This document shows positions 3 to 42,624 of a DNA stretch of 64,000 nt, piece by piece. This DNA comes from Anaeromyxobacter diazotrophicus. Its GTDB lineage: Bacteria; Myxococcota; Myxococcia; Myxococcales; Anaeromyxobacteraceae. The notes under the pieces were generated by a model that saw only the letters and a list, made by a program, of their open reading frames with translations, had not been told where the DNA came from and made no database searches. How positions within the stretch are numbered: position 1 is the first letter of the stretch; each line of letters begins with the position of its first letter. The position numbers were made by a program, and so were the translations under genes. The stretch spans positions 62,001 to 126,000 of the forward strand of contig NZ_BJTG01000003.1 of NCBI RefSeq assembly GCF_013340205.1, read 5' to 3'.

Positions 3-2285
3 CTGGCCGGCCTCGCCACCGAGCCGGTGAGCCAGCTGCCCGCGTGGCGGAGCTACCTGCTGGTCGGGGACGAGCTCCTGCAGCAGCTCCCCGTCGCTGG
101 CCCGGGCACGCCGCCCGAGCTGGTCGCGAAGCAGTCGCGGCAGCCCTGGTTCGAGGACGGTGGCACGGTCCAGGAGCTCTCCGTGGGGACGTTCCGCTAC
201 ACCTTCGCGACCGCGCTGCCGGAGGGCTTCGACCCGGCGGAGACGCTTCGCGTCGGCGTGTGGCTGCGCGAGGTGGTCCCCGGGACACCCGACACCAGCT
301 CGACCTTCGACTTCGTGCCCGCCGGCGGCGCGCCGCGGTCGCGCGAGCTCGTCCTCGACCAGAACTGCAACCACTGCCACGGGCTGCGCCAGGGGCACAA
401 CCGCTCGCGCACCGGCTGGAAGCTCTGCGTCACCTGCCACACCTACCAGCACGCCGACGCCGAGACGGTGGACCCGGCGGCGATGGCAGGCGCGACGCCC
501 GCCACGAACCCGAACCCGCTCGAGTTCGGCCGCCTCATCCACCGCGTCCACCGCGGGCGCCAGCTGCCGACGCTCTATCTGTCGAGCAGCACCGCGCCGG
601 CGCCGGCGCTCCCCCCGCCCGCGCCGGCGGTGGCGCTCCCGCTCCCCTTCGCGGCCAACCGCAACAAGTCGCTCCTCGGCCAGAAGTTCTCGGTGGTCGA
701 CGATCAGAACGGCGCCGGGGAGATGATCTTCGGCCAGGTCATCTCGCGGACCGACAACAACCAGCCGGCGCGGAACCAGCCCACCGGCCTCGTCTACCTG
801 CCCGCGGGGCAGGACTACCGCAACTGCGACGTCTGCCATGCCGGCGCGGCCCAGCAGGGCGAGGTGGTGACCACCATCGCCCGCCGGACCTGCCAGGGCT
901 GCCACCCCGACCTCTGGTATGGCGACGGCCCGACGGACCCGGTCCACCTCGCCCACCCCGGTGGGCCGCAGGCGGACGACACGCGGTGCGCCGGCTGCCA
1001 CGTCGACCCCGGCGCGATCGTGCCGCACTCCGAGGCGCACCAGGCCCCCTTCAAGAGCCCATACTACAACACACTCTCCGTCAAGCTGGTGGCGGTGAGC
1101 GGCATGGTGGCGGGCGGCTTCCCTACTGTGACCTTCTCGGCCAGAGACCTGAACGGCCCGCTCACGCCGTCGCTGACGGCGCCCGTCCCGTTGGCCGACG
1201 CGGGACGGAGCGGCCGGGCGAGCCCGGTTCCGCGCGCGCTCGCCAGCGTCAGCTTCACGCTCATCGGCCCGTCCACCGAGTACCTGAGGACCAGCCCGAC
1301 CGTCAGCGACTCGACCAGCGCGACTTCGTCTCCTCCCCGCCTGGCCGTGGAGGACCCCGTCGTCAAGGGCCAGTACTCCTACACCTTCACGAAGGCCCTG
1401 CCAGCGACCGCCTCCGGCACGTGGACCGTCGTGATCACGGCCAGCCGGAGCGTCAAGACCGCCGTCTACGACAACACCGGCAAGTTCACGTGGCCGTACA
1501 CGGGCGAGACCCTCGCCGAGACGACCGACAACGACGTCCAGTACGTCGACCTCGCCGCGGGGGTCTGGCCGGGCGGCACGCCCGTGCCGCGGCGGCGGGT
1601 GGTGGACACCGCGAAGTGCAACGTGTGCCACCTGCGGCTCCAGATGCACGGGAGCCGCAACCAGGTGCAGTACTGCGTGACCTGCCACACCGCCGACTTC
1701 ACCGACTTCGGCTCGAGGCCGAAGCGGGCCGACAAGTCAGGCATGGTCAACCTCTCGACGGTCACGACCTCGGCCACCACCGGGCTCCCGGTGGCCGCCA
1801 CCTACGACGGCATCGAGGAGCGCTCGGTGCACCTCAAGGTGATGCAGCACCGGATCCACACCGGGTACCGGACCGGCAGCGCCTCGCTCGGCCTCGCCAA
1901 GCCGTTCGTCATCGTCTTCGGCAGCCCGTACTTCTTCGACGACGTGACCATGCCGAACATGATCCGGAACTGCACGCTGTGTCACGTCGGGAACGCGTTC
2001 GAGATCGAGAACATCGATTCGAGGCAGGCCTACACCGTCGCGAACGAGACGCCCAACCTCCAGCACCAGGGAACCCCCGCCGCTCCGGCACCGAGCACCC
2101 ATTCGCCGAACGAGCCGCACACGCCGCCCATCACCGCCGCGTGCATGGGCTGCCACGACACGCAGGCGGCCCTCACCCACTCGCGGCAGTTCACGACGCT
2201 CGACAACGTCGAGCAGTGCCTCCCCTGCCACGGGCGCGACGGCGTGAGCCCGGTGGCGGCCGTCCACGGGGTGAGCCTCCCATGA
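3..2285 (+). CDS. Decahaem c-type cytochrome, OmcA/MtrC family (5' partial)
   Basis: Outer-surface multihaem cytochrome expected to deliver respiratory electrons to extracellular acceptors. The frame is open to the window edge, so the signal peptide and true start lie upstream; a GTG at 27 is only an internal candidate. Ten CxxCH motifs are visible in two groups of five: nt 366-1001 (CNHCH, CVTCH, CDVCH, CQGCH, CAGCH) and nt 1617-2232 (CNVCH, CVTCH, CTLCH, CMGCH, CLPCH). About 200 residues without haem separate them. This beta/pentahaem/beta/pentahaem layout is that of MtrC and OmcA. The stop overlaps the next start (ATGA). It heads a five-gene operon with a beta-barrel and small cytochromes, which supports a porin-cytochrome role. 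The family call is firm; the electron acceptor is unknown. Confidence 0.9.
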   Translation: MAGLATEPVSQLPAWRSYLLVGDELLQQLPVAGPGTPPELVAKQSRQPWFEDGGTVQELSVGTFRYTFATALPEGFDPAETLRVGVWLREVVPGTPDTSSTFDFVPAGGAPRSRELVLDQNCNHCHGLRQGHNRSRTGWKLCVTCHTYQHADAETVDPAAMAGATPATNPNPLEFGRLIHRVHRGRQLPTLYLSSSTAPAPALPPPAPAVALPLPFAANRNKSLLGQKFSVVDDQNGAGEMIFGQVISRTDNNQPARNQPTGLVYLPAGQDYRNCDVCHAGAAQQGEVVTTIARRTCQGCHPDLWYGDGPTDPVHLAHPGGPQADDTRCAGCHVDPGAIVPHSEAHQAPFKSPYYNTLSVKLVAVSGMVAGGFPTVTFSARDLNGPLTPSLTAPVPLADAGRSGRASPVPRALASVSFTLIGPSTEYLRTSPTVSDSTSATSSPPRLAVEDPVVKGQYSYTFTKALPATASGTWTVVITASRSVKTAVYDNTGKFTWPYTGETLAETTDNDVQYVDLAAGVWPGGTPVPRRRVVDTAKCNVCHLRLQMHGSRNQVQYCVTCHTADFTDFGSRPKRADKSGMVNLSTVTTSATTGLPVAATYDGIEERSVHLKVMQHRIHTGYRTGSASLGLAKPFVIVFGSPYFFDDVTMPNMIRNCTLCHVGNAFEIENIDSRQAYTVANETPNLQHQGTPAAPAPSTHSPNEPHTPPITAACMGCHDTQAALTHSRQFTTLDNVEQCLPCHGRDGVSPVAAVHGVSLP

Positions 2286-3475
2286 CCTCCCTCTCCGCCT
2301 TCGCCCGGCGCCTCGGCGCCGCCGCGCTCCTCGCGACGCTGGCGGGCTGCTCCTCGCCGCGCGTCGAGCGGGCGCCGGCCGACGTGACGTTCAGCGTCGG
2401 GATCATCGACGGCAACCCCGGGATCCCGGTCGTGGGCGGCCCGCCCGGGAACGGCGGCGCGCCGCAGACCGCCACCACCGTCCACCTCAAGTTCCTGGGC
2501 GGGGCGCCCGGGCCCTTCACCGTGGTGGCGCAGCGCCTGGCGCGGCCGCCGGCCGCCGGCCAGCCGGTGGACTGGACGTCCATCCCGGCCAGCACCGTCC
2601 CGCTCGTCCCGGCGGCGGAGGCGGTGGGCCTGTCGAAGGAGGCCTGGAACACCGAGTTCCAGGCCGCGCTCGGCTACCTGCAGGTCTGGGACTACGGCAT
2701 CTACGACGTGGACATCAAGGCCGCCTACGACGACCAGCGGCTCTACCTGCAGCTCCAGTGGCGCGACTCGACGCAGAGCCTCGCCCACCACGACTGGATC
2801 TACCGGGTCGACCCGGCCACCGGGCTCGGCGCGTTCGCGCGCCGGACCACCGACGAGGACGTCGTCTACCTCTCCTTCCTCATCGACCCCGCCGCGGCGG
2901 GGCGCGCCGCCTCGGGCTGCACCACCGCCTGCCACGTGAGCGAGCGGCGCGGCGCGACCACCCCCGACGACCTCGCCTACCGGTTCACGATGCACGCCGC
3001 CGCGCCGGGCCTGCGCGCGGACTCGTGGGCATGGCACGCCGGCCGGACGAACCCGCTCGGCCTGGCGGACGACGCCTCCTGGGACGAGGCGGGCCTGTAC
3101 GGCGACTGCCCCGACCCGCCGGCCTGCACGCAGCTGTGCGCCGGCGGCGAGGCGCCGCCGTGCAGCACGCCCCCGTACGCCGGCGACGACGACGCGCCGG
3201 CGCCGGCGCCGCTCTTCATGTCGGCGGACGGGATCGACGCCAGCCCCGCCTTCCTCTTCCTCGGCGGTGCCGGCGCGCCCGCAGCGGTGCCCTTCGATCC
3301 CGGCGCGGCGGCCTCGGCCGGCGCGACCCTCCCCGGCGCGGCGCTCCAGCGGCCGAGCGCGCACCGCGGCGACGTGAGCGCCCGCGGCACCTGGGCGAAC
3401 GGCGTCTGGACCCTCGAGCTCTCCCGCGACCTGGTGACGTCAGACCCGAACGACGCGCAGTTCCCCCTCCAATGA
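2282..3475 (+). CDS. Lipoprotein with ethylbenzene-dehydrogenase-like haem domain
   Basis: Predicted 397-aa lipoprotein: hydrophobic signal ending in LATLAGC with Cys23 as the lipidation site. The middle (about residues 120-200) has the strand pattern of EB_dh-type haem-binding domains (DVDIKAAYDDQRLYLQLQW) found in b/c-haem electron carriers. It also carries a CTTACH (CxxxCH) motif near residue 222, a possible extra haem site. Further Cys pairs follow (CPDPPACTQLC, then APPCSTPPY). Start ATG overlaps the stop of the decahaem gene by four bases, and its own stop overlaps the next start, so translation is probably coupled. Likely a periplasmic or outer-membrane-anchored electron-transfer partner. 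The EB_dh assignment is by eye and moderate. Confidence 0.7.
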   Translation: MTSLSAFARRLGAAALLATLAGCSSPRVERAPADVTFSVGIIDGNPGIPVVGGPPGNGGAPQTATTVHLKFLGGAPGPFTVVAQRLARPPAAGQPVDWTSIPASTVPLVPAAEAVGLSKEAWNTEFQAALGYLQVWDYGIYDVDIKAAYDDQRLYLQLQWRDSTQSLAHHDWIYRVDPATGLGAFARRTTDEDVVYLSFLIDPAAAGRAASGCTTACHVSERRGATTPDDLAYRFTMHAAAPGLRADSWAWHAGRTNPLGLADDASWDEAGLYGDCPDPPACTQLCAGGEAPPCSTPPYAGDDDAPAPAPLFMSADGIDASPAFLFLGGAGAPAAVPFDPGAAASAGATLPGAALQRPSAHRGDVSARGTWANGVWTLELSRDLVTSDPNDAQFPLQ

Positions 3476-33509: not shown

Positions 33510-34202
33510 ATGCGCCGCCTCGTCCTCGCACTCCTCCTCGCCGCCGCGCCCGCGCTGGGCCTGACCCAGCCGGCGGATCCCGGCGCGCCGCCGCCTGCTC
33601 CTGCTCCCGCTCCGCCCGAGGGGGCGCCGCCGGCGGCCCAGCCGGCCACGCCGCAGCCTCCGGCGCCTCCGCCGCCCCCGGCGCAGGTGACCTCGCCTCC
33701 CGAGGTCGCGCCGCCCCCCGCGGCCGCGCCGCAGCCGGCCGCCGGGCCCCCCGGCCAGTGGGTCTACACGGACCAGTACGGCTGGCTGTGGATGCCCTAC
33801 GGGCGGGCGTACACGTACATCCCCGGGGACCCGCAGGTGTTCCCCGACGCGTACGTCTATTACCCGGCGTACGGCTGGCGGTGGGTCGTCGCGCCCTGGA
33901 TCTACGGCTACGGCCCGGCGCCGTACTGGGGCGCGCTCGGGCCTCGCCCCTTCGTCTGGTACTCCCGGCCCTGGTTCCGCGTCGGCGGCTACTGGGGCTG
34001 GGGCGGCTACCGCGGCTGGGGGCACTACCGCGGGTGGATCGGCCCCCGGGCCTGGGGTGCGCGCGGGTGGGCCGGCGCGCCGGCGTACTACCGCAGCGGC
34101 GTCGGCGGCCCGCACCCGGCCCACGTCTTCCGCGCCGCGCCGGCGCGCCACGGCGGCGAGCACGAGCGGGGCCGCGGCGAGCGGCGCGAGCACGGCCGCT
34201 GA
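33510..34202 (+). CDS. Secreted Pro-rich and Trp/Tyr/Gly-rich protein
   Basis: 230 aa. A signal peptide ends near residue 19, then about 60 residues of Pro/Ala repeats, then an aromatic region beginning GQWVYTDQYGWLWMPYGRAY and continuing with many YxxW/GYW units, and a His/Arg/Glu-rich tail. The GxWxYTxxYGWxWxPYG module occurs in secreted or outer-membrane proteins of deltaproteobacteria without assigned function. It may be a surface or matrix protein. A 168-base divergent spacer separates it from the phosphoesterase. Confidence 0.75.
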   Translation: MRRLVLALLLAAAPALGLTQPADPGAPPPAPAPAPPEGAPPAAQPATPQPPAPPPPPAQVTSPPEVAPPPAAAPQPAAGPPGQWVYTDQYGWLWMPYGRAYTYIPGDPQVFPDAYVYYPAYGWRWVVAPWIYGYGPAPYWGALGPRPFVWYSRPWFRVGGYWGWGGYRGWGHYRGWIGPRAWGARGWAGAPAYYRSGVGGPHPAHVFRAAPARHGGEHERGRGERREHGR

Positions 34203-34223: not shown

Positions 34224-35552
34224 CTACCCCGCCGCCCCAGCGCGCCGCCGCTGCTCGCGGCCGAGGTACACCCCGAGCGCGAGCCAGACCAGGCTGAGCG
34301 GCACGCTCACCCACGAGGTGCCGGCGACGCCCAGCCCCAGGCCCGCCAGCCCCGCGTAGAGCCAGCCGCTCAGCATGTCGCCGCCGCGGAACACCACCGT
34401 GTCGATGAAGTTCTTCGACTTGTAGCGCTCCTCCCGGCTGACGACCGTGAAGAGGAGCTCGCGCGAGGGGCGCAGGATGGCGTACTGGGCCGCGCGCCGG
34501 AGCCCCTGGAACGGCGCCAGGACGACCAGCGCCGGCGAGACGCCCAGCACCGCGTACCCGGCGGCGGTGAGGGCCGGCGCGATCCCCAGCCCCACCGCCA
34601 CGCCGAGCCGCTTCAGCACCTGGCCGGTGACGAGCGTCTGCAGGAGCAGCGTGCAGACGTTGACGACGAGGTCGATGCGGGCGAAGAGCGCGGTCCTGGC
34701 GCCGCGGTCGCTCGTCGCCGCCGCCACCAGGTGCGCCTGCTGGAAGTAGAGGAAGGTGTTCGCGACCGTGAGCAGCAGGATGTAGAGCGCGGAGGCGAGC
34801 AGGTACGGCGAGGCGAGCACCGGCCGGATGCCGCTCCACACCGTCCCGCCCACCGCCTGCTCGCGGTCGGCGGTCGCGGCGGCGCCGCGCCGGGCCGCGC
34901 CGGCCCGCGCCCAGCGCTCGAGCAGGACGACGCAGGCGACCGACACCTCGAGCAGCAGCGCCGAGGCGAGCAGGAGGTTCGCGCCGCCGAGCGGCCTCGC
35001 CAGCCAGGAGGTGACGAGCGGGCCGGCGAGCGCGCCGAGCCCGCCACCGGCGGAGATGAAGCCGAAGAGCCGCTTCCCCTGCTCGCTCGTGAACACGTCC
35101 GTCATGAAGCTCCAGAAGACGGAGGTGACGAACAGGTTGTAGACGGCGGCCCAGACGTAGAACGCGAACGGCACCCAGCCCTTGCCCAGCTCCAGCTTCC
35201 AGAGCGCGCAGAAGAGGACGAGGTCGAGCGCGAAGAAGTGGTAGGCCCAGGTGATGAGCCGGTGCCGCGGCCAGCGCGACGCCAGCCACCCGAAGAGCGG
35301 CGAGGCCACCGCCATCGCGACGAAGGTCCCGGTGAAGAGCACCGGCAGCTTGTCGACCCCGCGCGAGATCCCCATCTCGTCGCGGATCGGCCGCAGCACG
35401 TAGTACCCGCACAGCAGGGCGAAGAAGTAGGCGAACGAGAGCGCGAGCGCGCCGAGCTCGCCGGCGCGCACGTCGACGGCGCGCCGGAGGAGGCCGGCGC
35501 GCGCGGGCGCCCCGGCGGCGTCGCCCTCCGGCGGCACGCGGGCGCCGCTCAA
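34224..35552 (-). CDS. MFS/ATP-ADP-carrier-like transporter
   Basis: 442 aa with about 12 predicted TM helices. FALLCGYYVLRPIRDEMG near the N-terminus and the later RPSRELLFTVVSREERYKSK followed by NFIDTVVFRGGD are the signatures of the NTP/NDP-exchange-related MFS group. Outside intracellular parasites such proteins are common in free-living bacteria and their substrate is not known, so nucleotide transport is not assumed. It overlaps the upstream MDR gene by four bases (ATGA), giving a two-gene operon. Confidence 0.85.
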   Translation of the reverse strand: MSGARVPPEGDAAGAPARAGLLRRAVDVRAGELGALALSFAYFFALLCGYYVLRPIRDEMGISRGVDKLPVLFTGTFVAMAVASPLFGWLASRWPRHRLITWAYHFFALDLVLFCALWKLELGKGWVPFAFYVWAAVYNLFVTSVFWSFMTDVFTSEQGKRLFGFISAGGGLGALAGPLVTSWLARPLGGANLLLASALLLEVSVACVVLLERWARAGAARRGAAATADREQAVGGTVWSGIRPVLASPYLLASALYILLLTVANTFLYFQQAHLVAAATSDRGARTALFARIDLVVNVCTLLLQTLVTGQVLKRLGVAVGLGIAPALTAAGYAVLGVSPALVVLAPFQGLRRAAQYAILRPSRELLFTVVSREERYKSKNFIDTVVFRGGDMLSGWLYAGLAGLGLGVAGTSWVSVPLSLVWLALGVYLGREQRRRAGAAG

Positions 35553-36643
35553 GGGATCACGACGATCGCGATCTTGCCGCGCACCGCGCCGCCGCCGCGC
35601 TCCTTGTCCTCGAACGCCTCCCGGACGCGATCGAGCGGGTAGGCGCGGTCGACGTGCGGCGTCACGATGCCGGCCTCGACCAGGCGGGCGAGCGTCTCGA
35701 GCGACGCCGTGTCCATCCGGGTGTTCTCGTCCACGGCGGTCACGCCGTAGCGCTCCGGGAGGTCGCTCGGCGGCGGGTGCGTCATCGAGACGAGGATCCC
35801 GCCGCGCCGCAGCACCTTGAACGAGCGCGCCCAGGTGTCGCCGCCGACGGTGTCGAAGGCGGCGTCGTACCCGGAGAGCAGCTCGTCGAACCGCTGGCTG
35901 CGGTAGTCGATCACCTCGTCCGCCCCGAGCTCCTTCGCGAAGGCGAGGCCGCCGCCGGTCGCGGTGGTGGCGACGTGCGCGCCGGCGTTCTTCGCGATCT
36001 GGATCGCGACGCTCCCGATGCCGCCGCCGCCGCCGTGGACGAGGACCTTCTGACCCGGCAGCACCTTCAGGTACTCGACCACCGCCTGGAGCGCGCTCAC
36101 GCCGACGAGCGGCAGCGAGGCCGCGTCGGTGAAGCCGACGTTCCGCGGCTTCCGCGCGAGGCGCGCGGCGGGCGCGACCGCGTACTCCGCGAAGGCGCCC
36201 GAGCCGCCGGTGGTGACGGCCGCCTGCCCGTACACCTCGTCGCCGACCCGCAGGGAGCCGACCCCCGCGCCGAGCCGCTTCACCACCCCGGCCACGTCGT
36301 ACCCGAGGGTCACCGGCAGGCTGAGCGGGAAGCGCTGCTGCCGCGAGCCCTCGCGGATGTAGGTGTCCACCGGGTTGAGGCTCGACGCGTGCACCTCGAG
36401 CAGGACCTGCCCCGGCCCCGGCGCGGGGACGTCCACCTCGGTCACCGCGATGGCGTCGGGGTGCCCGTAGCTCGCGATCCGCGCCGCCTTCATGCGCGCG
36501 GGCAGCGCCGGCGCCGCGGCGGGAGCGCCGCCGGGCCGCACGGCCTGCGCCTCGTGCTGACAGCCGGCCGCCGCCGCGGCGAGCAGCGCGACCGCGAGCA
36601 CCCGCCTCCCACCCCGAAGCAGCGAACCCGGCGCGACCTCCAT
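35549..36643 (-). CDS. MDR-family oxidoreductase with lipoprotein signal
   Basis: 364 aa. ATG 36643 follows a good SD (AGGAGGAGC). The first 28 residues are a lipoprotein signal (VLAVALLAAAAAGC, Cys28). From residue 48 the chain is a normal zinc-independent MDR/quinone oxidoreductase (MKAARIASYGHPDAI; HASSLNPVDTYIREG; NAD(P) loop HGGGGGIGSVAIQIAK). Family members are cytosolic NAD(P)H enzymes, so a lipid-anchored copy is odd; if exported it would need a cofactor source outside. An alternative start at the internal ATG of MKAARI would give a soluble enzyme, but no SD is seen there. It shares an operon with the MFS gene. Confidence 0.82.
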   Translation of the reverse strand: MEVAPGSLLRGGRRVLAVALLAAAAAGCQHEAQAVRPGGAPAAAPALPARMKAARIASYGHPDAIAVTEVDVPAPGPGQVLLEVHASSLNPVDTYIREGSRQQRFPLSLPVTLGYDVAGVVKRLGAGVGSLRVGDEVYGQAAVTTGGSGAFAEYAVAPAARLARKPRNVGFTDAASLPLVGVSALQAVVEYLKVLPGQKVLVHGGGGGIGSVAIQIAKNAGAHVATTATGGGLAFAKELGADEVIDYRSQRFDELLSGYDAAFDTVGGDTWARSFKVLRRGGILVSMTHPPPSDLPERYGVTAVDENTRMDTASLETLARLVEAGIVTPHVDRAYPLDRVREAFEDKERGGGAVRGKIAIVVIP

Positions 36644-36740
36644 GCGAACGGCTCCTCCTGCGCGGGGCGCCCGCGCCGGGACGCTGTAAGTGGGCGCCGG
36701 CCGCGCCGCCAAGAAAGCGGCCCGTCGCCGCGCGGGCAGG

Positions 36741-38129
<1,389 letters not shown>

Positions 38130-38270: not shown

Positions 38271-40535
38271 ATGCAGGAGCGCTCCCCCACGGTCGCCACC
38301 GGCGCGCTGGCGCCGCCCATCGAGATCCGGGTGCACGGGCGCGGCGGCCAGGGGGCGGTCACCTGCGCGAAGCTCCTCGCGCGCATGTACGCGGAGCAGG
38401 GGCTCCACGTGCAGACCTTCGGCGACTACGGCTCGGAGCGGGCCGGCGCCCCGGTGCGCGCCTTCACCCGCGTGGACACCGCGCCGGTCGCCAACCGCAA
38501 CAAGGTCTACCACCCGCACCACCTGCTCGTGCTCGACACGGCGCTCCTCGGCGACGACGTCCTGGACGGCGCCGCGCGCGAGGCGGTGCTGCTCGTGAAC
38601 AGCGCCCGCGGGCTCGGGGCCTTCGGCGAGCGGCACCGCGCCTTCCGCGTCGCCGCCGTGGACGCCACCGCCGTCGCGCGCCGCCACGGCATCGGCTCGG
38701 CCGCCCTCGTCATCGTGAACACCACCGTCGCCGGCGCCTACGCGCGCGTGGTCGGCCTGCCGTGGGAGGTGGTGGAGCGGGCGTACCGGGCGCTGGAGCT
38801 GGACGGCGATCTCCCCGCCGCGCGCGAGGCGTACGAGGCGGTGGTGGTGCGCGCCCCCGAGCCCGGCGCCGCCGCGCCGGCGCCGCGCGCCCTGGCCGCG
38901 CCCGCGCCGCCCGTGATCGGCCTCGCCGAGCTGGCGGAGGACCTGCCCACCCGGCTCCCGACCGGCACCTGGCGGACGCAGCGGCCGCGCTACCGGACGC
39001 ACCTCGCGCCCTGCAACGCGGCCTGCCCGGCGGGCAACGACGTGGTCGGCTTCGTCGGGGCGCTCCGGACCGGCGGCGTCGAGGCGGCGGCGCGGCTCCT
39101 CCTCGCGACCCAGCCCTTGCCGTCCGTCTGCGGACGGGTCTGCCCGGCGCCGTGCATGGCGGCGTGCAACCGCGCCGCCTACGACGGCGCGGTGAACGTC
39201 CGCGCGCTGGAGCGCTGGATCGGCGACCACCTCGGCGCGGCGCCGGAGCGTCCGCCGGACGCGGCGCGGCCGCGGCGGTTCGCGGTGGTCGGGAGCGGGC
39301 CCGCCGGGCTCTCCGCCGCCTTCGCGCTCCGCACGGCCGGGCACGCGGTCACGATCCTGGAGGCGGCGCCGCGCCTGGGCGGCGTCCTGCGCAACGGGAT
39401 CCCCGCCTACCGGCTGCCGCACGACGTCCTCGACCGCGACCTGGCCCGCCTGCTGGCGCTGGGCGTGGACGCGCGCTGCGGCTACGCGGTGGACGCGGCG
39501 GCGGTGCGGGAGCTCGCCGCCGGCCACGACGCGGTGATCCTGGCCGCGGGCCGGCAGCGCGCGAGCGACCTCGAGGTGCCCGGCCGGTCGCTGCCGGGCG
39601 TGGTGGACGGGCTCGGCTTCCTCGACGGGGTGAAGAACGGCGGCGGCCGCGCCCTCGGCGGCCACGTGGTGGTGGTGGGCGGCGGCAACACCGCGGTGGA
39701 CTGCGCCCGGACGGCGCTCCGCTGCGGCGCGGAGCGGGTGACGCTCGTCTACCGGCGCGGGCGCGCCGAGCTCCCCGCCATCGCGAGCGAGATCGACGAG
39801 GCGGCCGCGGAGGGGATCGCGCTGCTCCTCCACCGGCAGCCCGTCGCCTTCACCGGGGACGACCAGGTCGAGGGCGTGGTCCTGGCCGAGGTCGAGGCGG
39901 GGGCGCCGGACGCGAGCGGCCGGCGCCGCCCGGTGGTCACCGATCGCACCGCCGTCCTCGCCTGCGACGGCGTGCTCCTCGCGCTCGGCCAGGCCGCCGA
40001 CCTGGGCCTCCTCCCGGCGGGCTGGGCGGTGCGCGAGGGCCGCGCCTTCGACGGCGACCGGCCGACGAACGTGTGGCTGGCGGGGGACCTCGACACCGGC
40101 GAGGGGACGGTGACGCACGCGGTGGGGAACGGCCGGCGCGTCGCCGGGCGCGCGCTCTGCGCCGCGGAGGGCCGCCCGGCGCCGGCCGAGCCCGCGGCGC
40201 CGCTCGAGGAGCGGGTCGCGCCGGCGCACGTGCGCTTCAGCCACTTCGAGGTGGCGCCGCCGCGGCTCGAGCGGCACGCCGCCGCGGAGGTGCGCGCGCG
40301 GGGGTTCGAGGAGGTGAGCCGCGGGCTCGACGACGCCGCGGAGGCCGAGCGCTGCTTCTCCTGCGGGCGCTGCACGCGCTGCGACACGTGCCTCCTCTCG
40401 TGCCCCGAGGGCGTGGTGAGCCGCAGCGGCGACGGCTACGCGGTGGACGAGGCCTTCTGCAAGGGGTGCGGCATGTGCGTGGCGGAGTGCCCGCGGCGGG
40501 CGATGGAGATGACGCTCGACCTGGGGGCGGGGTGA
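38271..40535 (+). CDS. 2-oxoacid oxidoreductase gamma subunit fused to GltD-like flavoprotein and ferredoxin
   Basis: 754-aa triple fusion. Residues about 15-190 are the gamma subunit of pyruvate/2-oxoacid:ferredoxin oxidoreductases (IEIRVHGRGGQGAVTCAKLL). About 245-660 is a GltD/NADPH-dependent glutamate-synthase-beta-like module: 4Fe-4S cysteines (CNAACPAGNDV; CGRVCPAPCMAAC), FAD motif VVGSGPAGLSAAFAL, NAD(P) motif VVVGGGNTAVDCA. The last 90 residues hold ferredoxin clusters (CFSCGRCTRCDTC; CKGCGMCVAECP). The flavin module would let the enzyme exchange electrons with NAD(P)H directly. Alpha and beta subunits follow immediately. Confidence 0.9.
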   Translation: MQERSPTVATGALAPPIEIRVHGRGGQGAVTCAKLLARMYAEQGLHVQTFGDYGSERAGAPVRAFTRVDTAPVANRNKVYHPHHLLVLDTALLGDDVLDGAAREAVLLVNSARGLGAFGERHRAFRVAAVDATAVARRHGIGSAALVIVNTTVAGAYARVVGLPWEVVERAYRALELDGDLPAAREAYEAVVVRAPEPGAAAPAPRALAAPAPPVIGLAELAEDLPTRLPTGTWRTQRPRYRTHLAPCNAACPAGNDVVGFVGALRTGGVEAAARLLLATQPLPSVCGRVCPAPCMAACNRAAYDGAVNVRALERWIGDHLGAAPERPPDAARPRRFAVVGSGPAGLSAAFALRTAGHAVTILEAAPRLGGVLRNGIPAYRLPHDVLDRDLARLLALGVDARCGYAVDAAAVRELAAGHDAVILAAGRQRASDLEVPGRSLPGVVDGLGFLDGVKNGGGRALGGHVVVVGGGNTAVDCARTALRCGAERVTLVYRRGRAELPAIASEIDEAAAEGIALLLHRQPVAFTGDDQVEGVVLAEVEAGAPDASGRRRPVVTDRTAVLACDGVLLALGQAADLGLLPAGWAVREGRAFDGDRPTNVWLAGDLDTGEGTVTHAVGNGRRVAGRALCAAEGRPAPAEPAAPLEERVAPAHVRFSHFEVAPPRLERHAAAEVRARGFEEVSRGLDDAAEAERCFSCGRCTRCDTCLLSCPEGVVSRSGDGYAVDEAFCKGCGMCVAECPRRAMEMTLDLGAG

Positions 40536-40537
40536 AC

Positions 40538-41701
40538 ATGGCCGGTCAGCTCCTCAGCGCCAACCACGCCGCCGCCCTCGCCGCCGCGCTCGCCGGGCGG
40601 GCCAACCGCGCGGCGCGCGGCTTCTGCAGCGGCGTCTACCCCATCACGCCCTCCACCGAGTGCATGGAGCTCCTCTGCAACCAGGAGATCGAGAAGGGCG
40701 AGGTGGTGCGGGTCGAGAGCGAGCACAGCGCCATGGCGGTGTGCATCGGGGCGGCGGCGAGCGGGGCGCGCACGTTCAGCACCTCGTCCTCGAACGGGCT
40801 CGCGCTCATGGCGGAGAACGTGGTGGCCGCGGCGCTCCTGCGGCTGCCGGTGGTGATGGTGGCCGCGAACCGCACGCTCGGGCCGCCCTGGAACATCTGG
40901 GCGGACCACGGCGACACCCTGCTCCTGCGCGACAGCGGGTGGGTGCAGCTCTACTGCGCGGACAACCAGGAGGTCCTCGACAGCGTGCTGTGCGCCTACC
41001 GGCTCGCCGAGGACCGGCGGGTGCTCCTGCCGGTCCTCGTCTGCCAGGAGGGGTTCGTGCTCTCGCACACGATGACCGAGACCGACGTCCCCTCGCAGGA
41101 GCGCGTGGACCGGTTCCTGCCGCCGCTCGAGCTGCCCGGCCGGCTCGGCGCGACGCCGCGGGTGATGGGCGGCATCGACGCGCCGCACACCACCGAGGTG
41201 CACCGCGCCCAGCACCACGAGGCCATGGGGCGCGTCTTCGAGGTGTACCGCGAGGTGCAGGCGGCCTTCGAGCGCGAGCTCGGGCGACGCCCCGCCGACC
41301 CGGTGGTGGCCTACCGCGCCGAGGACGCCGAGGCGCTGATCGTGTCGATGGGCACCATCGCCTCCACCGTCGTGCGCGCCGTGGACGAGGCCCGCGCCCG
41401 CGGGGAGCGGCTCGGCGCCGTCCGAGTCCGCATGTTCCGGCCCTTCCCGGCGGACGCGCTCGCGCGGCTCTTCCGGGGCAAGCGGCGCATCGCGGTGATC
41501 GACCGGAACCTCAGCCTCGGGTTCGGCGGCGTGCTGTGGGGCGAGGCCCGGGGGCAGGCCGAGCCGGGGGCGATCGTGCAGGGCTACGTCATCGGGATCG
41601 GCGGCGGCGACGTCCGGCCCGCGCACGTCGCGGCCATCGCCGCCGATCTCGCGGCGCGCACCGCCGCGGGGGCGCCGGTCCTGCTGGAGGCGGGCACATG
41701 A
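40538..41701 (+). CDS. 2-oxoacid:acceptor oxidoreductase alpha subunit
   Basis: 387 aa. The PFOR/KGOR alpha fold is evident: SGVYPITPSTECMELL at about residue 31, SEHSAMAVCIGAAASGARTF and TSSSNGLALMAENVV (pyrimidine-binding part of the TPP site), later VRMFRPFPADAL. It oxidises a 2-oxoacid with CoA to acyl-CoA and CO2, or runs in reverse. ATG 40538 lies two bases after the gamma stop; the stop overlaps the beta start by four bases. The exact 2-oxoacid cannot be deduced. Confidence 0.92.
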   Translation: MAGQLLSANHAAALAAALAGRANRAARGFCSGVYPITPSTECMELLCNQEIEKGEVVRVESEHSAMAVCIGAAASGARTFSTSSSNGLALMAENVVAAALLRLPVVMVAANRTLGPPWNIWADHGDTLLLRDSGWVQLYCADNQEVLDSVLCAYRLAEDRRVLLPVLVCQEGFVLSHTMTETDVPSQERVDRFLPPLELPGRLGATPRVMGGIDAPHTTEVHRAQHHEAMGRVFEVYREVQAAFERELGRRPADPVVAYRAEDAEALIVSMGTIASTVVRAVDEARARGERLGAVRVRMFRPFPADALARLFRGKRRIAVIDRNLSLGFGGVLWGEARGQAEPGAIVQGYVIGIGGGDVRPAHVAAIAADLAARTAAGAPVLLEAGT

Positions 41702-42624
41702 GCGAGCTCACGGCGACCGTCGCCTCCGCCCCGGCGCCGGCGCGCGCCGCGCCGCTCCTGCGCCCGGGCAACAGCAACTGCCCCGGCTGCGGGATGTCGA
41801 TGGCGCTCCAGATCTTCGCCCGCGGCATCGAGCACCGGCGCGTGCAGCTCGTCGTGCCGGCCTCGTGCGCGGCGGTGATGGCGGGGCCCTTCCCCACCAC
41901 CTCCCTGGCGGCGCCGGTGGTGCTCTCCACCTTCGGCGCCGGCGCCGCCGTCGCCACCGGGCTGGCGCGCGTGGCGCGGCTCAACGGCGACGGCACGCGC
42001 GTCGTGTGCTGGGCCGGCGACGGCGGCACCTACGACATCGGGATGGCGAGCCTCTCCGCCGCGGCCGAGCGCGACGAGGACGTGCTCTACGTCTGCTACG
42101 ACAACGAGATCTACGGCAACACCGGCGGCCAGCGCTCCTCGGCCACCCCCGCCGGGGCGAGCACCACCAACACCCCCGCCGGCAAGCTGGAGGAGAAGAA
42201 GGACATCCTCGCCATCCTGGCGGCGCACCGCGTCCGGTACGCGGCGTCGCTCTCCATCGCCCACCCGCAGGACGCGGTCCGCAAGGTGCGGCGCGCGCTC
42301 GACACCTCCGGCTTCCGGTTCCTGCACGTGCTCGCCCCGTGCCCCACCGGCTGGAAGTCGGAGCCCGCGCTCGGGATCGAGCTCGTCCGGCTGGCGGTGC
42401 GCTCGGGGCTCTACCCCATCGTGGAGATCGTGGAGGGTCGCAAGCTCGTCATCAACCACGAGCCCGACTTCTCGACGGAGGCGCTGGAGCTGTACCTGTC
42501 GCTGCAGCGGCGGTTCCAGCGGTCCGGGCTGTCGGCGGAGCGGTTCGCCGCCGCCATCGCCCAGAACTGGCGCGATCTGCGCGCGCGCAGCGGGCGCATC
42601 GTGCCCGCCGACCGCGAGGGGTGA
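41698..42624 (+). CDS. 2-oxoacid:acceptor oxidoreductase beta subunit (TPP-binding)
   Basis: 308 aa. CPGCGMSMALQI gives the proximal Fe-S cysteines, and the TPP/Mg motif is WAGDGGTYDIGMASLSAAAE through DNEIYGNTGGQ. LAPCPTGWKS is the usual final cysteine segment. It completes the heterotrimeric enzyme of this operon. Start overlaps the alpha stop (ATGA). The following XRE-cupin gene begins 17 bases later, so the regulator is likely co-transcribed. Confidence 0.93.
   Translation: MSELTATVASAPAPARAAPLLRPGNSNCPGCGMSMALQIFARGIEHRRVQLVVPASCAAVMAGPFPTTSLAAPVVLSTFGAGAAVATGLARVARLNGDGTRVVCWAGDGGTYDIGMASLSAAAERDEDVLYVCYDNEIYGNTGGQRSSATPAGASTTNTPAGKLEEKKDILAILAAHRVRYAASLSIAHPQDAVRKVRRALDTSGFRFLHVLAPCPTGWKSEPALGIELVRLAVRSGLYPIVEIVEGRKLVINHEPDFSTEALELYLSLQRRFQRSGLSAERFAAAIAQNWRDLRARSGRIVPADREG

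Follow-up and report, generated by a model that had tools for sequence, protein, structure and literature searches.

NAD(P)H is generally regarded as restricted to the cytoplasm. Where NAD(P) enzymes are exported, as in the case of glucose-fructose oxidoreductase (GFOR), the usual explanation is that the cofactor stays permanently attached to the enzyme. We know of no carrier partner of GFOR. The locus studied here lies in a window of 64,000 nucleotides (the whole stretch of DNA that was analysed) from Anaeromyxobacter diazotrophicus, and consists of genes for an MDR-type oxidoreductase with a predicted lipoprotein signal and for a membrane carrier. Like this MDR, if its signal is used, GFOR is an oxidoreductase that depends on a dinucleotide and acts outside the cytoplasm; according to PMC4628093, it binds its cofactor and carries a Tat signal. 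It differs in belonging to the Gfo/Idh/MocA family, whose domains gave no Pfam match in the window MDR, and in keeping its cofactor permanently bound. The carrier is related to the NTT family (TLC, PF03219), some of whose members in intracellular bacteria, including PamNTT4 and Npt1, transport NAD according to PMC5381601, which offers a precedent for a carrier that moves cofactor. Among the matches listed in our search of the open-access literature, which covered MDRs as lipoproteins, NAD(P)H in the periplasm, AKR and epimerases exported by Tat, the pairing of such carriers with enzymes, and NTT structures, we saw nothing pertinent. The comparative pairing of carrier and partner reported below is a new result.

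The oxidoreductase and its predicted export signal

The original prediction placed an NAD(P)-dependent MDR enzyme with a lipobox signal in this part of the window (Table 1). Its reading frame, strand and coordinates were exact. The type of enzyme is borne out by the Pfam domains ADH_N, ADH_zinc_N, and ADH_zinc_N_2 and by the dinucleotide-binding motif, of which G204, G207, and G210 are invariant in 22 sequences; ADH_N and ADH_zinc_N together with this motif identify the protein as a member of the family. The structure model, built with 21 homologues, has a mean pLDDT of 88.6 and is confident from about residue 45, with residues 1–39 below 50. It resembles NADPH-dependent quinone oxidoreductases when searched with Foldseek (Coxiella 3tqh, 9.0e-34; NADPH-bound RTN4IP1 2vn8, 9.5e-32). 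The window MDR shares its fold and its dinucleotide motif with MDRs of the quinone-oxidoreductase type (PIG3, RTN4IP1, Coxiella 3tqh), but differs from PIG3-type enzymes by the lipoprotein signal and by a score below the curated cut-off of the PIG3 subfamily model TIGR02824 (160.6 vs 296.8 bits).

Table 1. Features of the locus, with positions in the window.
Feature	Position	Strand	Remarks
Sigma-54-type activator with PAS domain	36741..38129	-	97 nt upstream of the MDR gene, same strand
Shine-Dalgarno AGGAGG of the long start	36654..36659	-	10 nt upstream of ATG 36643
MDR (quinone-oxidoreductase-type) lipoprotein gene, predicted	35549..36643	-	364 aa
Putative signal peptide, residues 1-27 (MEVAPGSLLRGGRRVLAVALLAAAAAG)	36563..36643	-	twin Arg 13-14
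Lipobox Cys28	36560..36562	-	sole cysteine in the protein; sequence
Ala/Pro-rich linker, residues 29-50	36494..36559	-	low model confidence through residue 39
Catalytic MDR domain, residues 51-364	35552..36493	-	Pfam, model, Foldseek
Glycine-rich dinucleotide-binding motif, residues 204-210	36014..36034	-	22-sequence alignment
Overlap of MDR stop and carrier start (TTGA)	35549..35552	-	4 nt
Carrier of MFS/NTT kind	34224..35552	-	442 aa; distantly related to ATP/ADP translocases

The protein begins with MEVAPGSLLRGGRRVLAVALLAAAAAGCQHEAQ, followed by the linker and then by the catalytic domain from residue 51. This N-terminus shows a basic n-region, a hydrophobic core, and a lipobox ending in Cys28; both this cysteine and the good Shine-Dalgarno sequence (SD) had been predicted and were confirmed. 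The 50-codon extension ahead of the catalytic domain looks like coding sequence, because its GC content by codon position (0.92/0.68/0.90) contrasts with the flat values of the preceding 97 nt (0.79/0.84/0.81). In a test of our own, requiring a lipobox, a hydrophobic core, and K/R, 2 of the 2292 start codons of the window followed by 50 open codons pass, and only that of the MDR has an SD. The other start (19240, plus strand; MKLAGLEPVGLHTVVGG...GGCASGTL) lacks one, and its match may be a membrane-transporter motif. The MDR also passes, with GRRVLAV, our loose twin-Arg test (RR, a start codon within 20 codons, and a hydrophobic stretch), and it matches neither the Pfam TAT_signal profile (E 0.1) nor the NCBIfam Tat models (E 0.001). 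Taken together, the start codon, its SD, the lipobox, the linker, and the lack of an SD at the internal ATG (36493) that opens the conserved domain make anchoring as a lipoprotein a well-supported prediction for this MDR.

Alternatively, the enzyme may be made from the internal ATG as an ordinary cytosolic quinone oxidoreductase, the signal being a product of decay or chance and the neighbouring carrier incidental. The homologues provide some ground for this view, since the conserved domain of those we read begins at the internal Met and 110 of 115 homologous frames show no upstream lipobox. The two closest ones found, at 54% (a Saccharibacteria MAG) and 51% identity (in the fragmented genome G117, from the same order; G and L denote our genomes and loci), themselves start at this Met. 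The catalytic domain offers no sign of export either: we rejected its freedom from cysteines as an indicator because 33 of 95 distinct homologous domains, including that of the window, share it, among them those of the nine closest untagged homologues. The AGGAGG at the long start, the missing internal SD, the coding-like extension, and the rarity of lipobox matches in the window argue against internal initiation, which we find improbable.

We found no conservation of the lipobox among the relatives of the MDR. It occurs in five of the 115 frames (duplicates included), corresponding to two proteins, that of the window and one in G112, so that the tag is local with one further case. When a twin Arg and a hydrophobic region were required, only the window MDR passed among the 69 distinct homologues with at least 10 open upstream codons. 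The MDR of G112 (L083 1480–2532, minus strand) has the lipobox LWLAGC at the same place and a domain 40% identical to that of the window. Unlike the window MDR, it has no clear SD and no carrier match within 13 kb; the carrier of that genome lies with an SDR on another contig. The tag was probably gained twice, because the two tagged proteins are only 40% identical and nearer relatives lack it.

The carrier and its neighbours in the window

On the minus strand, the activator gene is followed after 97 nt by the MDR gene, whose stop codon (TGA, 35549–35551) overlaps the start of the carrier gene (TTG at 35552). The activator is a possible regulator of this putative operon. Two other stretches of the window lie on the plus strand. 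One (33510–34202) encodes a signal-peptide-like protein rich in Tyr and Trp, for which neither Pfam nor NCBIfam gave a match at E 0.001. The other (38272–42624), judged from its translations, we take to resemble a 2-oxoacid:ferredoxin oxidoreductase cluster with a glutamate-synthase-like flavoprotein part.

The carrier had been described as an ATP/ADP-carrier-like transporter sharing an operon with the MDR. The 4-nt overlap fits the shared operon, and the likeness to nucleotide carriers is weak by Pfam and clearer by profile. The best Pfam match is MFS_1 (37.1 bits), along with MFS_2 and TLC (23.1 bits, for a gathering cut-off of 21), and no HEAT match was found with Pfam. At E 0.01, 10 of 22 carrier orthologs match TLC and 16 of 22 match MFS_1. 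The window carrier alone matched no solved structure at E 1. A profile of the 22 orthologs, searched against the PDB, retrieved an ADP,ATP carrier (9j3n, 4.5e-12) and a chloroplastic carrier (9j3j, 1.1e-6), with the next match at 0.24. Since the best matches of the family profile are two solved NTTs, the carrier is, as judged by profile, distantly related to the NTT nucleotide carriers. The homology covers much of the protein, including a C-terminal motif (YKSK.FIDT aligned with VKGKAAIDV). A search of the window's own genome with PF03219 gave no match at E 0.001, where no control matched either. The AlphaFold model of the carrier alone (pLDDT 46) was set aside.

We take K155, E245, E385, and K527 of AtNTT1 to be critical for ATP/ADP exchange. 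These positions are supported by 9j3j, where by our count they fall at 71, 161, 301, and 443 with a constant offset and the right letters. In the profile alignment, read by hand, they correspond to G75, A136, Y269, and D392 of the window carrier, the K155/G75 pair lying in a weak segment of 4.1 bits. Because all four are replaced, the window carrier does not appear to be an ordinary ATP/ADP exchanger. It further differs from the NTTs in its missing HEAT match and in the exported-type oxidoreductases that accompany its family.

The loss of the exchange residues and the best match to MFS_1 are both in keeping with the main rival to a role of the carrier in cofactor supply. Here, the carrier would move a substrate or product (sugar, aldehyde, ketone, or acid), and the enzymes would fold in the cytoplasm around a tightly bound cofactor, leave by Tat, and recycle this cofactor with two substrates, in the manner of GFOR. 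This reading sits less well with the profile kinship of the carrier, which is to nucleotide carriers and not to other solved MFS carriers.

Exported-type NAD(P) enzymes beside the carrier

We searched 193 genomes of Myxococcota and found the carrier in 92 of them at E 1e-25. Orthologs (identity of 48–54% and E of at most 2.9e-61, with the window included and one of them partial) are present in 75 of the 193, from 16 genera and four families by our count; the 17 genomes with only weaker matches were left out of this set. An epimerase-type SDR occurs in 72 of the 193 genomes (presumably the same draw as in the carrier search) and together with the carrier in 71. Among the 75 genomes with orthologs, 72 encode an SDR and/or an AKR downstream of the carrier on the same strand, counts that are not independent because the sample includes related genomes. 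The SDR is in this position in 69 genomes, within less than 260 bp in 63 of them. In five genomes (G006, G011, G015, G022, G045) an AKR fills a gap of 953–1093 bp between carrier and SDR, in another (G002) it directly follows the carrier with the SDR 4.1 kb away, and in three (G009, G049, G007) it adjoins the carrier and no SDR was found. The genomes without an SDR or AKR partner are that of the window, which has the MDR instead, G121, where an NDH-2-like gene follows the carrier, and G148, where the contig ends at the carrier.

The genome of the window has no such epimerase-type SDR at E 1e-30. It does encode, on another contig (C1) far from the carrier, an AKR with a Tat-type N-terminus (L248 1486–2454, minus strand). 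The window carrier may serve two enzymes, the MDR and this distant AKR, because the latter adjoins a histidine kinase related (50%) to the carrier-adjacent kinase of G009. Elsewhere, we searched the fetched ortholog loci for an MDR beside the carrier and retained none: the only matches (32–36%, in L142–L144) are on the opposite strand and non-adjacent.

Other genes recur around the carrier. An NDH-2-like gene comes after the carrier and its SDR in some genomes, or after the carrier itself in G121 (L210 1318–2697, where the assignment was checked with Pfam, L211 6563–7969, and L180 2477–3832). Of the 31 loci of family f4 fetched with flanks, 25 by our count have a class I/II aminotransferase gene ahead of the carrier (e.g., L138 7387–8685). 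In three genomes of genus g6, the carrier comes after a 1200-aa FAD-oxidase/Fe-S protein with DUF3683 (L142 2377–5985, L143, and L144).

The partners carry N-termini that resemble export signals. All 62 distinct SDRs that we read pass the loose twin-Arg test, 59 of them with a lipobox, as in MKLSRRGVIQGAAAVGSLWAMGCAT. So do 11 of the 12 AKR rows, which come from nine genomes and three plasmids; the twelfth is a piece of the frame-split gene of G022, and a signal of this kind sits on the other piece. By genome, the N-terminus of the partner was read in 65 of 72 and is of export type in all 65; seven carrier-adjacent SDRs were unread. In comparison, among 5000 random in-frame points the test selects 231. 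The curated Tat models matched few partners, all below cut-off: TIGR01409 reached 15.5 vs 16.7 bits in at least one of eight proteins, and PF10518 reached 15.0 vs 22.7 bits in one of eight and, elsewhere, 19.9 vs 22.7 bits in one SDR among eight proteins that were not all partners.

Outside the phylum, a search of plasmids gave 12 records with the carrier, of which we examined 10. Six of them have an exported-type NAD(P) enzyme beside it. In Azotobacter, an F420/NADP-reductase-like gene with a Tat-type N-terminus lies directly downstream of the carrier, and two genes upstream lies an SDR whose frame, extended beyond the annotated start, contains a Tat-like stretch. A similar F420/NADP-reductase-like gene adjoins the carrier of Pantoea pPAT9B04, its Tat-type signal beginning before the annotated start. 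In three plasmids of Cupriavidus (metallidurans CH34, EM10, and campinensis), the gene directly upstream of the carrier encodes an AKR with a Tat-type signal; the campinensis carrier runs in two frames. The more distant carrier of Catenovulum (30% identity) is directly preceded by an SDR with a Sec-like signal. The other four records have no adjacent enzyme of this kind: the AKR of Pantoea pPAT9B03 is untagged, those of Comamonadaceae and Mycetohabitans show no exported-type NAD(P) neighbour of the carrier, and in the Rhizobium plasmid (L261 3049–6710) the carrier frame is interrupted by an apparent pair of transposase genes. Upstream in this Rhizobium plasmid lies a small protein with a Tat-like start. 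In Cupriavidus, an untagged gene that we take to be zinc-type alcohol-dehydrogenase-like comes after the carrier (L258 5353–6459, L262 5404–6557, L263 5333–6439).

These partners also bear on the idea that the carrier scavenges NAD or nucleotides, importing dinucleotides from lysed neighbours with the exported proteins as periplasmic binding or processing partners. NAD transport by the NTT carriers of intracellular bacteria would suit this idea. The partners, however, belong to catalytic oxidoreductase families, including aldo-keto reductases, that to our knowledge are not among the families of binding proteins, and the Azotobacter, Pantoea, and Cupriavidus hosts of the plasmids are not, as far as we know, predators. 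We therefore give scavenging little credence.

More distant carriers served as controls. Seven such paralogs (26–33% identity) have no directly adjacent match to the families searched (SDR, AKR, MDR); one of them, L195, has an MDR match 2.8 kb away. Two genes upstream of another paralog (L216) is a 540-aa protein with a Tat-like start (1651–3273). A tree of 32 carriers separates five of these paralogs from the remaining 27 (support 100/99), and the window carrier falls within the latter, partnered clade, beside that of G189 (97/95). The Catenovulum and Mycetohabitans carriers have long branches and their placement is unsure.

What the pairing may mean

The carrier is associated with exported-type NAD(P) enzymes both in the Myxococcota genomes searched and on six of the ten plasmids examined. 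The simplest reading, and the one we favour, is that it serves their cofactor, because the partner families share NAD(P) and export-type N-termini and the carrier is kin to nucleotide transporters. The recurrent system would pair a nucleotide-transporter-related carrier with an exported oxidoreductase that depends on NAD(P) and belongs to different families in different lineages (epimerase-type SDR, AKR, F420/NADP-reductase-like, classical SDR, or MDR). We infer that the carrier would move NAD(P)(H) across the inner membrane, or swap there the oxidised for the reduced form of the cofactor or a related nucleotide, which would allow the exported enzyme to turn over in the periplasm. In the window, the sequence strongly indicates that the MDR leaves the cytoplasm and is held in the cell envelope by a lipoprotein anchor. 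That this MDR and a carrier of NAD(P)(H) or a related nucleotide form a local version of the two-part system is, in our estimate, plausible but just short of an even chance. The envelope nucleotide supply suggested by the original prediction gains from the frequency of SDR and AKR partners and from their export-type N-termini, and loses from the replacement of the NTT exchange residues.

Gene order cannot decide between a carrier of cofactor and a carrier of substrate. The Tat-type tags of the partners would permit folded, cofactor-loaded export, as in GFOR, and the 39 places where the SDR occurs away from carriers count against cofactor transport. On the other side, several enzyme families, probably differing in substrate, share one carrier, which speaks against substrate transport. 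We regard the latter as possible but doubtful.

If the carrier serves the cofactor, free-living bacteria may devote a system to NAD(P)(H) outside the inner membrane, in which a carrier of NTT lineage keeps up a cofactor pool or trades oxidised for reduced cofactor and different lineages add different exported dehydrogenases (SDR, AKR, F420/NADP-reductase-like, MDR), a generalisation that we put forward more tentatively than the reading of the window itself. It would explain what a so far uncharacterised group of carriers does in free-living bacteria, and the pair of carrier and exported-type NAD(P) enzyme provides a genetic handle on the question of whether bacteria carry out NAD(P)H chemistry in the periplasm.
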